Origin: Arthrobacter sp. UNC362MFTsu5.1
Lineage (GTDB): Bacteria; Actinomycetota; Actinomycetes; Actinomycetales; Micrococcaceae
Length of the DNA stretch: 64,000 nucleotides
Assembly: GCF_000685965.1 (NCBI RefSeq)
Contig: NZ_JMLE01000005.1
Location: forward strand, 1 to 64,000
Direction: 5' to 3'
Position numbers and translations under genes: made by a program. Under the pieces are notes generated by a model. That model was not told where the DNA came from and did no database searches. It saw nothing but the letters and a program-made list of their open reading frames with translations. Position 1 is the stretch's first letter. Each line of letters opens with the position of its first letter. Of this stretch, positions 52,979 to 60,101 are shown piece after piece.

Positions 52979-54058
52979 CTATTCGCCGATGGCGTCCAGG
53001 CGGGCCTGTTCGTCCATCTCGATGGCCGACTGGATCACGGGTTCCAGGTCGCCATTCATGACCTGGTCCAGGTTGTAGGCCTTGTACCCGGTGCGGTGGT
53101 CCGCGATGCGGTTTTCCGGGTAGTTGTAGGTCCGGATGCGCTCGGAACGGTCCATGGTGCGGATCTGGGACTTGCGCTGGGCCGAGTTCTCGGCGTCGAT
53201 CTGTTCCTGCTGGTGCGCCAGGATGCGGGCGCGCAGCACGCGCATGCCGGCCTCACGGTTCTGCAGCTGGGACTTTTCGTTCTGCATGGCCACCACGATG
53301 CCGGTGGGAAGGTGGGTGATGCGCACCGCGGAGTCGGTGGTGTTAACCGACTGCCCGCCCGGCCCCGACGACCGGTAGACGTCGATCTTGAGGTCGTTCT
53401 GGTTGATCTCAAGCTCTTCAGGCTCGTCCACTTCGGGAAGCACAAGGACGCCGGCGGCCGAGGTGTGGATGCGGCCCTGGGATTCCGTCACGGGGACACG
53501 CTGCACACGGTGCACGCCGCCTTCGAACTTCAGCCGCGCGTAAACGCCTTCGGCGGGGTCGTTCGAGCTGCCCTTGACGGCCATCTGGACGTCCTTGTAG
53601 CCGCCCAGGTCCGATTCGGTGGCCGAAATGAGCTCGGTTTTCCAGCCGCGTGATTCCGCGTAGCGGGTGTACATCCGCAGCAGGTCCGCAGCGAACAGCG
53701 CAGCCTCGTCGCCGCCTTCGCCGCCCTTGACCTCGAGAATCACGTTGCGGGCATCGTCCGGATCGCGCGGGATGAGCAGGCGGCGCAGCTTGGCGGCCGC
53801 CGTCTCCAGCGAAGCCTCCAGCTCAGGCACCTCGGCGGCAAACTCAGGGTCCTCGTCCGCCATTTCCCTGGCCGCCGCGAGGTCGTCCCGAATACCCTCC
53901 CAGCGGTGGTAGGCCTCGACAATGCCGTTCAACTGAGCAGACCGCCGCCCAAGCTTCCGGGCTAGCCGCTGGTCAGCATAAACGGCAGGATCCCCCAGCT
54001 GCGCCTGGATGGCATCATGCTCATCAAGCAGGCCCTGTACGGACTCAAACATTTTCAA
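52979..54058 (-). CDS. prfA: Peptide chain release factor 1
   Basis: 359 aa, recognising UAA and UAG. It carries the GGQ motif in [17 protein letters not shown] and the stop-codon-reading motif [15 protein letters not shown] (PVT, the actinobacterial form of PAT). It follows rho, with no rpmE between them. Confidence 0.97.
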
Positions 54059-54107
54059 AACCTCTTTCGACTCTTACAAGTCTAGTTTCGTGGGACTTAA
54101 CGACGAA

Positions 54108-54151
54108 CCGCCCAAAGTATGCCGGCCACAGGGTCGGCATACTTTGAGCGG
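54108..54151 (-). terminator. Hairpin between rho and prfA
   Basis: Two 17-nt arms (54108-54124 and 54135-54151) match at 16 positions around a 10-nt loop (core CAAAGTATGCCG). It begins 10 bp after the rho stop in the minus direction. No clear T-tract follows, so partial termination or RNA stabilisation are both possible. It occupies the place where rpmE lies in mycobacteria. Confidence 0.6.
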
Positions 54152-54160
54152 TAAGCACAG

Positions 54161-56347
<2,187 letters not shown>

Positions 56348-56688
56348 GAAGGATCCTTCCCCCTCGACGGCGTCCAGACTGGGAGCTGGACGCGATGATT
56401 TGATCTGGGCTGCAGTTCAGATCTGCAGCCGGATTTCGGCCTTGCCGGATGGAATTCGGCCAGCAGGGCCGGATACTGATACGCCTCGAACATTCCAAGA
56501 AGAGAACGGAATGGCGGACTGACGGTTCAGGGGTGCAGAGCGATTCTGCAGATTCCTGCGACAGACCAAAGCAGGCGGCACCGGAGACTGTTGCGCAGTT
56601 GAAGTTCAGAGCAGCAAACGATTAGACAGGCGCCATGGCCAACATCGGATTCGTCGTGACTGCGGGTTTCTTTAAACTGCCTGCGGGA
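56348..56688 (-). promoter_or_regulatory. Long structured leader of rho
   Basis: 341 bp without a gene between thrB and rho. Reading toward rho, it contains a hairpin GGCTGCAG/CTGCAGCC (56408-56430), a hairpin CGTCCAG/CTGGACG (56371-56392) and a 12-bp palindrome GAAGGATCCTTC (56348-56359). The palindrome covers the AAGG ribosome site directly before the GTG. I could not place a confident promoter. The structure suggests post-transcriptional or attenuation control. Confidence 0.5.
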
Positions 56689-57675
56689 TTACCGCCGGTG
56701 CACTCCCACTTTAGCACCTTCAACGTCCACCGCCAGCTTCATCACACGCCAGCCGACATCCGGCGTGTTGGCCCGCGTGTAGGCCTCGATGAAGCCCACC
56801 ACTGCGGCGGCCTCTTCTTCCCCGTTGGCGAGGACCAGGACAGTCGGTCCGGCGCCGGAAACAACGGCAGCGTGTCCTGCATAACGCAGCGCACGGATCA
56901 GGTCCGCGCTGGGGCGCATGGCTTCCGCGCGGTAGCTCTGGTGGAGGTAGTCCTCCGTGCCGGCCAGCAGGAATTCCGGCTTGCTGGTGAGGGCATGGAT
57001 GAGCAGCGCGGCCCGGCCCGAGTTCATGGCGGCAGCATGGTGGCCCACCGATGCCGGCAGCAGTGCGCGTGCCGCTTCGGTGGACAGCTCATAGTCAGGT
57101 ACGGCAACGACCGGGATCACCGAATCCGACACCGTGGCGCAGGTGCTGCTGTACTGGTCACTGTCCTGCCATGACAGCGCCAGCCCGCCGAATATGGCCG
57201 GTGCCACGTTGTCAGGATGGCCTTCCATCTCGCTGGTGAGCTGCAGGATCCAGTCCTTGCCGCGGCGGGACGGCTCCGGCACCAGCGCATTCGCGGCCGT
57301 GACCGCGGCCACCACGGCCGAGGCCGAAGAGCCCAGGCCGCGGCCGTGGGGGTTGACGTTGTCCGCCGTGATCTTCAGGCCCTGGTGCCGGAAGCCCAGC
57401 CGGTGCAGGGCCTCGGTGATGGCCTTGACCACCAGGTGGCTCGCATCGCGCGGAAGCGTCTCCGCACCCTCGCCGCTCAGTTCGAACTCGAGCTCGCCGC
57501 TGCCCAGGGTTTCAACGGTCAGCGTGTCGTGCAGCGAGAGTGCGAGCCCCAGGCTGTCATAGCCGGGGCCAAGGTTGGCGCTGGTGGCGGGCACGCGGAC
57601 GGTTACCAACTGCCCGGCCGGAACTGCCGGCGCCCCGGCAGCTGACTCGGCCGGCACGGTGAGGGTGGTTTCCAA
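56689..57675 (-). CDS. thrB: Homoserine kinase
   Basis: 328 aa, a GHMP kinase phosphorylating homoserine. Motifs are VRVPATSANLGPGYDSLGLAL, the ATP-binding PHGRGLGSSASAVVAA and a C-terminal AAVVSGAGPTVLVLA. I use TTG 57675 (LETTLTVPAES), two bases after the thrC stop; the frame can be extended into thrC but without support. It ends the argS-lysA-hom-thrC-thrB series. Confidence 0.94.
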   Translation of the reverse strand: METTLTVPAESAAGAPAVPAGQLVTVRVPATSANLGPGYDSLGLALSLHDTLTVETLGSGELEFELSGEGAETLPRDASHLVVKAITEALHRLGFRHQGLKITADNVNPHGRGLGSSASAVVAAVTAANALVPEPSRRGKDWILQLTSEMEGHPDNVAPAIFGGLALSWQDSDQYSSTCATVSDSVIPVVAVPDYELSTEAARALLPASVGHHAAAMNSGRAALLIHALTSKPEFLLAGTEDYLHQSYRAEAMRPSADLIRALRYAGHAAVVSGAGPTVLVLANGEEEAAAVVGFIEAYTRANTPDVGWRVMKLAVDVEGAKVGVHRR

Positions 57676-57677
57676 GG

Positions 57678-58784
57678 CTATTTTTCTTCCAGGCCAAGTT
57701 CGGCGGCCACGGTGACCACGTCGTTGGACACCTTGACGGGCTGGACGTCGCTGCCGTCTTCGGTGCGCAGCGCCCACTGCGGGTCCTTCAGGCCATGGCC
57801 GGTCACGGTGATCACGATGGTCTTGCCGGTGGGAACCTGCCCCGCGGCATGCTTCTTGATCAGGCCGGCGACGCCTGCGGCGGAACCGGGTTCCACGAAG
57901 ACGCCTTCCTTGGCGGAAAGCCAGCGGTGCGCGGCGAGGATCTCATCGTCCGTCACGGCGTCGATGAATCCGCCGGACTCGTCACGGGCTGCGATGGCAC
58001 CGTCCCAGGAGGCGGGGTTTCCGATCCGGATTGCCGTGGCGATGGTGTCCGGCTCCGTGATGGGGTGGCCTGCGACGAACGGTGCAGCGCCGGCCGCCTG
58101 GAATCCCCACATCTGCGGGGTCCTGGTGGACACGGCGGGCAGCGTGCCGGCGGTTTCGGACTCGAACGGGGCGGAGTACTCCTTGTAGCCCTTCCAGTAC
58201 GCGGTGATGTTACCGGCATTGCCTACCGGGAGGACGTGGATGTCCGGGGCGTCGCCGAGCGCATCCACCACTTCGAAGGCACCGGTCTTCTGCCCCTGGA
58301 TCCGGGCCGGGTTGACGGAGTTCACCAGGAAAACGGGGTAGGACTCCCCCAGTTTGCGGGCGATGTCCAGGCAGTTGTCGAAGTTCCCGTCCACCTGCAG
58401 GAGGGTGGCGCCGTGGGCGATCGCCTGGCTCAGCTTGCCCATGGAGATCTTGCCCTCCGGCACCAGGACGGCGCACTGGAGGCCGGCTGCCGTGGCGTAG
58501 GCCGCTGCGGACGCTGACGTGTTGCCGGTGGAGGCGCACACCACTGCCTTGGCGCCCGAGGCCACGGCGGCCGTCATGGCCATGGTCATGCCACGGTCCT
58601 TGAAGGAGCCGGTGGGGTTCATGCCTTCGACCTTCAGGTACACAGTGGACCCGGTCAGCTCGGAGAGCTTCTGCGCGTGGACAAGCGGCGTGCCGCCCTC
58701 ACCGAGGGTGATGACCTTGGTGCTTTCCGTTACGGGCAAACGATCAGCGTATTCGCGGATGACACCGCGCCATTGGTGAGCCAC
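57678..58784 (-). CDS. thrC: Threonine synthase
   Basis: 368 aa, a PLP enzyme converting O-phosphohomoserine to threonine. The PLP lysine is in [41 protein letters not shown] and [12 protein letters not shown] are typical. GTG 58784 abuts the hom stop (TAAGTG), with AAGGAG 5 bp upstream. Confidence 0.97.
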
Positions 58785-60101
58785 TTAGACTCCTTCTACC
58801 CGCAGTACGGATGTAACGGAATTGATGACGTCCAGGCCCTTCACGGCCTGGACGGTCGCTGCCAGTGCAGCTTCGGTTGCGCGGTGGGTGACGATCCGCA
58901 GTTCGGCAGATTCCACGTTGGAATCGGCGTCACGGTGGATGGTCTGGCGCATGATCTCGATGGACACGCCGTGCTCCGCGAAGAGCTGGGCGATCTTGGC
59001 CAGAACGCCGGGCTGGTCGGCAACGTCCAGGCCGATGTAATAGCTGGTGTTGACGGCGTCGATGGGCAGGGCCGGCACCTGGCCGTTGGTGGTCTCGATC
59101 TGCGCCGGGCCGCCCAGGACAATCCGTCGGGCCGCGGAGACGAGGTCGCCCAGCACGGCCGACGCGGTGGGGGTGCCGCCGGCGCCCTGGCCGTAGAACA
59201 TGAGTTCGCCGGCGTTTTCCGCTTCCACGAAGACGGCGTTGAAGGCACCGTGGACGGCGGCCAGCGGGTGCTCCCGCGGCAGCAGCGTGGGGTGCACGCG
59301 GACGGAAACGCCTTCGCTGCCGTCGGCCGCAACAAGCTTCTCGGCGATGGCCAGGAGCTTGATGACGAACCCGGCGTCCTTGGCAGCGGCGATGTCCGCG
59401 GCACTGACTTCGGTGATGCCTTCGCAGTGGACGTTCTCGAGGTCGAACCGGGTGTGGAACGACAGCGAGGCCAGGATGGTCGCCTTGGCGGCGGCGTCGA
59501 GGCCGCCGACGTCGGCGGTGGGGTCCGCTTCGGCGTAGCCGAGGCGCTGCGCCTCGGCGAGGGCGTCGGCGAACTGCGCACCGGTGGTGTCCATCTGGTC
59601 AAGGATGAAGTTGGTGGTGCCGTTCACGATGCCCAGGACACGGGTGATGCGGTCGCCGGAGAGGCTGTCACGGATGGGACGCAGGATCGGGATGGCGCCG
59701 GCCACGGCGGCTTCATAGGACAGCTGGACGCCGGCCTTGTCTGCCGCTTCGTACAGCGTGGGGCCGTCCTGGGCCAGCAGGGCCTTGTTGCCGGTGACCA
59801 CGCTGGCGCCGTTCTGGATGGCGCTGAGGATCAGGGAACGGGCCGGCTCGATGCCGCCCATCAGTTCAATGACGAGGTCGGCGTCCTTGACCAGGGTTTC
59901 AGCATCCGTGGTGAACAGCTCCCGCGGCAGCTCGACGTCTCGCGGCGCATCGATGGTGCGAACGGCGATGCCGGTCAGCTCCAGTCGGGCTCCGGTGCGG
60001 GCGGCCAGTGATTCGGCGTCATCAATCAGAATCCGCGCCACCTGAGCCCCAACGTTGCCACAGCCCAGCAGGGCTACTTTCAGGGTTCGCAATTCAGTCA
60101 T
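58785..60101 (-). CDS. hom: Homoserine dehydrogenase with ACT domain
   Basis: 438 aa. The NAD(P)-binding LLGCGNVGAQVARIL is at the N-terminus. The catalytic region has GGIEPARSLILSAIQNGASV, SYEAAVAGAIPILRPIRDSL, GIVNGTTNFIL and AEADPTADVGGLDAAAKATI. The C-terminal ACT domain (YYIGLDVADQPGVLAKIAQL) allows feedback inhibition by threonine. It follows lysA with no gap. Confidence 0.97.
   Translation of the reverse strand: MTELRTLKVALLGCGNVGAQVARILIDDAESLAARTGARLELTGIAVRTIDAPRDVELPRELFTTDAETLVKDADLVIELMGGIEPARSLILSAIQNGASVVTGNKALLAQDGPTLYEAADKAGVQLSYEAAVAGAIPILRPIRDSLSGDRITRVLGIVNGTTNFILDQMDTTGAQFADALAEAQRLGYAEADPTADVGGLDAAAKATILASLSFHTRFDLENVHCEGITEVSAADIAAAKDAGFVIKLLAIAEKLVAADGSEGVSVRVHPTLLPREHPLAAVHGAFNAVFVEAENAGELMFYGQGAGGTPTASAVLGDLVSAARRIVLGGPAQIETTNGQVPALPIDAVNTSYYIGLDVADQPGVLAKIAQLFAEHGVSIEIMRQTIHRDADSNVESAELRIVTHRATEAALAATVQAVKGLDVINSVTSVLRVEGV

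Follow-up and report, generated by a model that had tools for sequence, protein, structure and literature searches.

Conserved hairpins in the leader of rho in Arthrobacter and its relatives probably control how much Rho is made

Introduction

In Escherichia coli and other bacteria, rho is autoregulated by attenuation at its own leader, as outlined in PMC6582626, and attenuation at the rho leader is also described for Bacillus subtilis (PMC12350095). Among the Actinobacteria, Rho is essential in Mycobacterium tuberculosis (PMC10937400), where its N-terminal subdomain binds RNA (PMC4167861). A search of the open-licence literature, with preprints and most subscription journals outside its scope, turned up neither an account of a structured rho leader from Actinobacteria nor anything on how actinobacteria set their Rho level. 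The rho terms sought were absent from PMC12810186 and PMC4046766, and in the sections of PMC4167861 drawn on here the sole occurrence of ‘autoregulat’ is a reference on another operon.

This work describes the rho leader in a 64,000-nt stretch of DNA from Arthrobacter sp. UNC362MFTsu5.1 (contig NZ_JMLE01000005.1, positions 1 to 64,000; hereafter the window) together with its counterparts in related genomes. Based on sequence comparison and predicted folding, we propose that conserved hairpins before rho probably control how much Rho is made.

Methods

Collection of rho leaders

Forty more family loci were collected. A rho start could be placed in 129 loci of the family, 67 from the genus and 62 from other genera, with some genomes represented twice. 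Leaders of the order and the class were taken from the best-scoring loci alone, 30 loci of 59 genomes and 29 new loci of 60 genomes. Both sets were then dereplicated, and their start codons were chosen by script. Order counts exclude three loci belonging to the genus (L157, L158 and L162), and one locus (L204) was not parsed.

Results

The rho locus and its leader

An intergenic leader separates rho from the next open reading frame (ORF) upstream, which we take to be thrB-like (Table 1). The closest named relatives of the encoded Rho protein are found in Arthrobacter sp. Leaf337 (98% identity) and A. oryzae CC159 (93%). A first-pass annotation of this DNA had reported two perfect hairpins in the 341-nt leader and a 12-nt palindrome that contains the Shine-Dalgarno sequence (SD) AAGGA directly before the GTG, and all of these are present in the sequence. 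The limits given for the distal hairpin, here P1, were right (56408-56430), while those given for the second, here P2, were one pair short (56371-56392 instead of 56370-56393). At the DNA level, P1 consists of eight perfect pairs (GGCTGCAG/CTGCAGCC) enclosing the 7-nt loop ATCTGAA, and P2 of eight perfect pairs (GCGTCCAG/CTGGACGC) around a loop of 8 nt. Their predicted pairing probabilities in the window are 0.97-1.0 and 0.98-1.0, respectively. The 3' arm of a third hairpin, P3, ends on the first base of GUG, and the start codon thus begins in the stem. The fold of 56300-56690 has a z score of -2.66, with one of 100 shuffles equally stable.

Table 1. Features of the rho locus in the window
Feature	Position	Strand	Remarks
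rho leader (intergenic)	56348-56688	minus	341 nt between upstream ORF and rho GTG
rho, 728 aa	54161-56347	minus	GTG start at 56345-56347; TIGR00767 family match, 632 bits
ORF upstream of rho leader	56689-57777
Conserved stretch upstream of P1	56431-56480	minus	85-96% per 10-nt bin in genus
P1 hairpin, GGCUGCAG - loop AUCUGAA - CUGCAGCC	56408-56430	minus
P1 loop AUCUGAA, recurring (A)UCUGA motif	56416-56422	minus
P2 hairpin, GCGUCCAG - 8-nt loop - CUGGACGC	56370-56393	minus
P3 hairpin (comparative register), CGAGGG - loop GGAAGGAU with SD - CCUUCG	56347-56366	minus
Palindrome GAAGGATCCTTC	56348-56359	minus	real as sequence, unsupported as hairpin
Shine-Dalgarno AAGGA	56354-56358	minus	6 nt before GTG
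Most C-over-G 80-nt leader stretch, weak rut candidate	56499-56578	minus

No sigma-70-like promoter was found for the leader, and no conserved -10 element could be assigned in the genus alignment. Among 4227 Rfam covariance models, none matched the leader at E ≤ 1. A scan of 20 relatives' loci at the gathering score yielded only L31 leaders (RF03158), located downstream of rho in three of them (L133, L138 and L154); no match to this leader occurs in 54000-60000 of the window.

Two repeats were noted around rho. A 15-bp tandem repeat within its coding sequence (55688-55758; 4.7 copies, 91% match) encodes RVSEQ repeats in the low-complexity N-terminal part of Rho, and its copy number may vary between strains. 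A long terminator-like inverted repeat (54108-54151; core CAAAGTATGCCG / CGGCATACTTTG) lies between rho and the ORF at 52979-54058, presumably prfA-like.

Conservation in the genus and the family

Of 61 genomes of the genus, 60 (the window's source among them) hold a match to the 801-nt region around the rho leader, the exception being a genome that is 68% complete (G027). Over these 60 loci, mean column conservation amounts to 95.1% in the final 133 nt of the leader (56480-56348) versus 86.9% in the first 248 nt of rho, with 10-nt bins ranging over 85-100% and 67-100%, respectively; the part of the leader that adjoins the upstream ORF is poorly conserved. P3 is identical in sequence in all 60 loci. 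P1 is identical in 47, and of its 13 variants 11 retain all eight pairs and one retains seven; a 1-nt insertion occurs in P1 of locus L017. P2 has all eight pairs in 52 loci and seven in the other eight. In the distal leader (56556-56580), much of the genus shares CCTGC...GCAGG around TTGGTCTGTC, which may form a further hairpin.

At the family level, a 301-nt query across the rho start was matched at E ≤ 0.001 by 133 of 149 genomes, some of these matches covering the start region only or lying elsewhere. The pattern CGAGGNNGAAGGN{1,4}CCTTCGTG occurs in 78 of 297 order genomes versus 2 genomes for the reversed pattern, and about 5 of its 79 matches are unlike rho leaders (CGAGGTT..., CGAGGTC..., CGAGGGT...).

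Covariation of P2 and P3

The stem sequence of P2 differs between genera with its pairing kept. When 46 of 52 dereplicated leaders (L113, L115, L126, L128, L129 and L132 being excluded as unclear) were plainly aligned, RNAalifold recovered P3 only, with next to no covariation (-0.18), and neither P1 nor P2, because this alignment left their stems out of register. A P2-P3 model was therefore built from 13 hand-picked family sequences, which by themselves already show the covariation pattern. At E ≤ 0.1 the model matched 87 of 93 chosen loci, with 91 matches in all and none in L113, L136, L143, L154, L160 and L187; four second hits, probably due to chance, were left in the covariation alignment. 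In this alignment all eight P2 pairs show double-sided changes and 93.3% of cells are paired, and 93.5% of P3 cells are paired, counts that lean towards the model since the alignments were fitted to it. P3 is nearly invariant, with few double-sided changes, so its covariation rests on few sequences. The covariation score of the P2-P3 structure is 0.370 versus 0.084 for shuffled and at most 0.060 for slid alignments, and on a cleaned set of 71 of those 93 loci it is 0.346 versus 0.088 shuffled; these scores lean the same way.

A model rebuilt from 71 leaders was run against the class with strict filters, under which weak matches are lost, and matched 18 of 246 genomes at E ≤ 0.1, with at least 10 genomes of the same order lacking a match. 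One match was found in the own genome. All matches below 1e-4 belong to the same order. The match at 3e-4 lies just upstream of rho in a genome of another order (G484). The remaining ones (E 0.009 to 0.07) are probably due to chance, those in G227 and G350 not being tied to rho.

The P2 loops were inspected for motifs. UC occurs in 42 of 63 loops versus 32.7 expected and UCU in 16 versus 6.4, with 11 motifs tried and related rows among them, and YC in general occurs in 53 versus 49 expected (p = 0.10); UC in the P2 loops is a lead only. Kissing between the P2 loop and the SD loop is unsupported, as their complementarity is 6.67 versus 6.70 for shuffled loops and lies above its own shuffle in 28 of 63 cases.

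P1 and its recurring UCUGA loop

In P1, the stem sequence varies from genus to genus and a UCUGA loop recurs. In 75 dereplicated leaders from the genus, family and order, TCTGA is the most enriched 5-mer (29 leaders versus 6.35 expected) and ATCTGA the most enriched 6-mer (18 versus 1.55 expected). Within 135 nt of the start, all 67 genus loci have TCTGA, as do 22 of the 62 loci from the rest of the family and 9 of the 27 order loci; as it is missing in the other 40 and 18 loci of the latter two sets, the motif is by no means universal. The 75 leaders hold 34 TCTGA sites, and a stem of at least 5 bp encloses 18 of these in its loop, versus 4.4 when flanks are swapped between species. In a fixed register with a 7-nt loop, applied to 45 distinct sites chosen without selection for pairing, 65.4% of cells are paired versus 44.6% shuffled and 33-44% slid, and the score is 0.511 versus 0.218 shuffled, figures that overstate independence since several rows are close relatives. 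Conservation and covariation of the stems in relatives had been named in advance as the test of the leader's structure, and its outcome is favorable, with both P2 and P1 covarying. In having a conserved location and a covarying structure, the leader resembles structured cis-regulatory mRNA leaders. The P1-P3 hairpins are real and conserved as RNA, the palindrome being the exception.

In some order leaders (L133, L134, L137 and L138), the UCUGA loop sits in the hairpin directly upstream of P3. Three leaders (L079, L108 and L117) carry UCUGA in both hairpin regions upstream of P3, a hint that a binding site may be repeated.

Recognition sites typically show a loop that recurs while its stems change. 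Together with the duplication of the loop in these three leaders, this would fit the binding of UCUGA loops by a small RNA, or by some protein that is not Rho, by which rho expression is tied to another signal. This explanation is nevertheless quite unlikely. The loop breaks the rule for ANTAR targets, a hexaloop with A1 and G4 as given in PMC8164766, and no pairing partner (UCAGA or CAGAU) is conserved inside the 22 leaders checked. On both strands of 220 kb of the contig, a UCUGA hairpin of at least 6 bp occurs in the rho leader only; about 0.45 such hairpins are expected with permuted loops, and this rarity alone therefore proves nothing.

The start region, P3 and the palindrome

The start region contains a block that is nearly constant across the family, CGAGGG(G/A)GAAGGA(U/A)CCUUCGUGAC. 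The RNAalifold consensus fold has CGAGGG paired with CCUUCG around a loop that holds the SD. Variants at the order level keep the pairing, with CGAAGG/CCUUCG in L154, CGAGA/UCUCG in L160 and CGAGG/CCUCG in L144 and L147, and a genome of another order (L203) has ACUCGG/CCGAGU at the P3 position. For the window alone, RNAfold favors a shifted register, GGGGGA/UCCUUC plus GUCG/UGAC, and gives the comparative P3 a probability of 0.03; in either register, the loop includes AGGA or more of the SD.

Of 26 family leaders, 23 have a hairpin with the SD in its loop, as have 20 of 24 leaders from the order, versus 31-35% of shuffles; for leaders of other orders, 8 of 23 versus 21% of shuffles is not clearly above chance. 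Under a loose definition, 8 of 34 window genes, rho among them, have one as well, so such a hairpin by itself is not rare. Stems of at least 6 bp are restricted to 2 of the 34 window genes (rho and one other) and occur in 14 of 24 order leaders. In two genomes of one family of the order (L152 and L153), the script-selected rho start has a weak SD and lacks P3, so the element may be lost or replaced there.

The SD has a mean predicted unpaired probability of 0.76 in 47 family leaders versus 0.43 in 33 other window genes (p = 3e-8), and the start codon one of 0.29 versus 0.46 (p = 0.007); both p values are indicative only, because the starts of the control genes were called roughly and the leaders are interrelated. 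The corresponding values are 0.67 for the SD and 0.21 for the start codon in 26 order leaders, and 0.60 and 0.34 for rho of the window itself. With the SD predicted to be more exposed and the start codon more paired than in other genes, the arrangement is not one of classic SD masking, in which the SD is paired in the predicted ground state; here it is not.

These values bear on the palindrome, which the first-pass annotation had placed over the ribosome site. That GAAGGATCCTTC acts as a hairpin masking the ribosome site, or as a DNA operator, is highly improbable. The 12 nt over the SD are perfectly palindromic, with both arms kept in much of the family, and a hairpin of the palindrome type is possible in 45 of 58 distinct start regions; yet the predicted probability of this hairpin in the window is 0.00. 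Both hairpin types can form in 44 of the 58 regions and neither in 6. In 7 the palindrome is lost and P3 kept (L113 among them probably by chance, and L142 and L148 with 4 bp only), and the reverse occurs in a single region (L132). Two other families of the order read GAAGGACCTTC, which has ceased to be an even palindrome. As a masking structure the palindrome was accordingly rejected.

The energy needed to open the start region is 10.8 in the family and 10.9 in the order versus 11.0 for other genes, which is no difference, and P3 alone thus shows no sign of strong repression. Its spread is small (sd 1.4 in 47 family leaders versus 4.1 in 33 other genes). An average opening energy with a small spread would suit a fixed strength, with P1-P3 merely stabilizing the 5' end of the mRNA or tuning a constant translation in the absence of any regulation, although kinship also narrows the spread. 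We regard such constant tuning as rather unlikely, since it leaves the recurring UCUGA loop on changing stems unexplained.

Leader peptide, terminator and C-rich stretch

Enterobacterial-type rho leaders carry a leader peptide, rhoL. A 49-codon ATG frame in the window ends in a TGA that overlaps the rho GTG, as would be expected if the conserved block coded for a leader peptide overlapping the rho start. Among 60 genus loci, however, this frame lacks a start, is shifted or is stopped in many, and no conserved short ORF emerges from it; the frame was rejected as a candidate, and a coding origin of the block is extremely improbable.

By consensus scan, no intrinsic terminator was found on the minus strand in 55800-57000, and the sole terminator-like site in this region lies on the plus strand, outside the leader. 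Attenuation at an intrinsic terminator is therefore unsupported. From the earlier suggestion of translational control or attenuation, the structured and probably regulatory leader stands, supported by conservation and covariation, and the palindrome masking the SD and attenuation at an intrinsic terminator do not.

Attenuation by Rho itself is a separate alternative, in which Rho would load on a C-rich part of the leader and stop RNA polymerase before or near the rho start, with the hairpins spacing or protecting the site. C exceeds G by 13 in 56578-56499, a value reached by 2.5% of 3196 background windows, and in three regions compared over 50 dereplicated family leaders, C outnumbers G in 70, 72 and 82% of the leaders, but this stretch is the best of many overlapping windows and its excess is not strong. 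Rho loading sites are usually unstructured, whereas the most conserved parts of this leader are structured. The alternative also leaves the UCUGA loop and P3 unexplained. The precedents of rho autoregulation through the leader, known from E. coli and other bacteria (PMC6582626) and from B. subtilis (PMC12350095), speak for such attenuation; in M. tuberculosis, Rho depletion left the RNA drop-off downstream of transcription starts unchanged, as reported in the relevant part of PMC10937400, which speaks against it. All in all, we consider Rho-dependent attenuation unlikely here.

Discussion

That a functional, conserved leader RNA is located upstream of rho is very likely, and that it acts at the translation initiation of rho is likely. 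The computational analysis finds the leader conserved, P2 and P1 covarying, P3 in a comparative register, and the SD predicted to be exposed with the start codon paired. The reading we favor, at a somewhat better than even probability, is that the last ~130 nt of the leader form a cis-acting RNA that sets the translation initiation of rho and perhaps serves as the receptor of a feedback by Rho.

According to this model, P3 would display the SD in a small loop, with its 3' arm holding the first base or bases of the start codon; P2 would stand a few nt upstream of P3, and P1 would present the UCUGA loop. The 30S subunit might dock on the exposed SD and would then have to open P3 to reach the GUG, and a factor that reads the loop of P1, perhaps also that of P2, could help or hinder this opening. 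The likeliest candidate for this factor would be Rho, because rho controls itself through its leader elsewhere (PMC6582626, PMC12350095) and because RNA binding is described for the N-terminal subdomain of an actinobacterial Rho (PMC4167861). The result would be a translational feedback, in which a failure of translation could lead to premature Rho-dependent termination. That Rho is the ligand of the leader is nonetheless a tentative and somewhat doubtful proposal. A more specific version, an order-level RNA family in which Rho reads the UCUGA loops via its actinobacterial N-terminal insert and blocks the ribosome from opening P3, is very unlikely. If it were true, the reading of UCUGA loops would be a new way of RNA recognition by Rho that does not proceed via an unstructured C-rich site, and the feedback of Rho would be translational rather than purely terminating.

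A conserved leader of defined structure makes the control of the Rho level in actinobacteria directly testable, and in soil species that are harmless. P3, with the SD in its loop and the start codon partly in its stem, offers a clean case for studying how ribosomes start when an exposed SD lies beside a closed start codon.

The rho leader is likewise the place of control in E. coli and B. subtilis (PMC6582626, PMC12350095). Control there proceeds through Rho-dependent termination, and the parts of these sources used here mention neither a UCUGA hairpin nor one with the SD in its loop. Unlike these leaders, that of Arthrobacter has conserved hairpins up to the start codon. A trans-acting factor on the rho leader is likewise known in Salmonella, where SraL, as described in PMC6582626, is a base-pairing sRNA that prevents premature termination; here, a pairing partner was sought inside the leaders. 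The ANTAR-target RNAs of Actinobacteria also comprise tandem stem-loops, some over the ribosome site, but according to the account in PMC8164766 they need two hexaloops with A1 and G4. The loops of the window do not conform to this, P1 having the 7-nt loop AUCUGAA with U at position 4 and P2 a variable 8-nt loop. The L31-Actinobacteria leader (RF03158) is likewise a conserved cis-acting hairpin leader in the neighborhood of rho, from which the rho leader differs in sequence and structure and by its position, the L31 leader being downstream of rho. Structured and probably feedback-controlled mRNA leaders are thus a known kind, and this leader stands out by an unusual start hairpin with the SD in its loop and by a recurring UCUGA loop.
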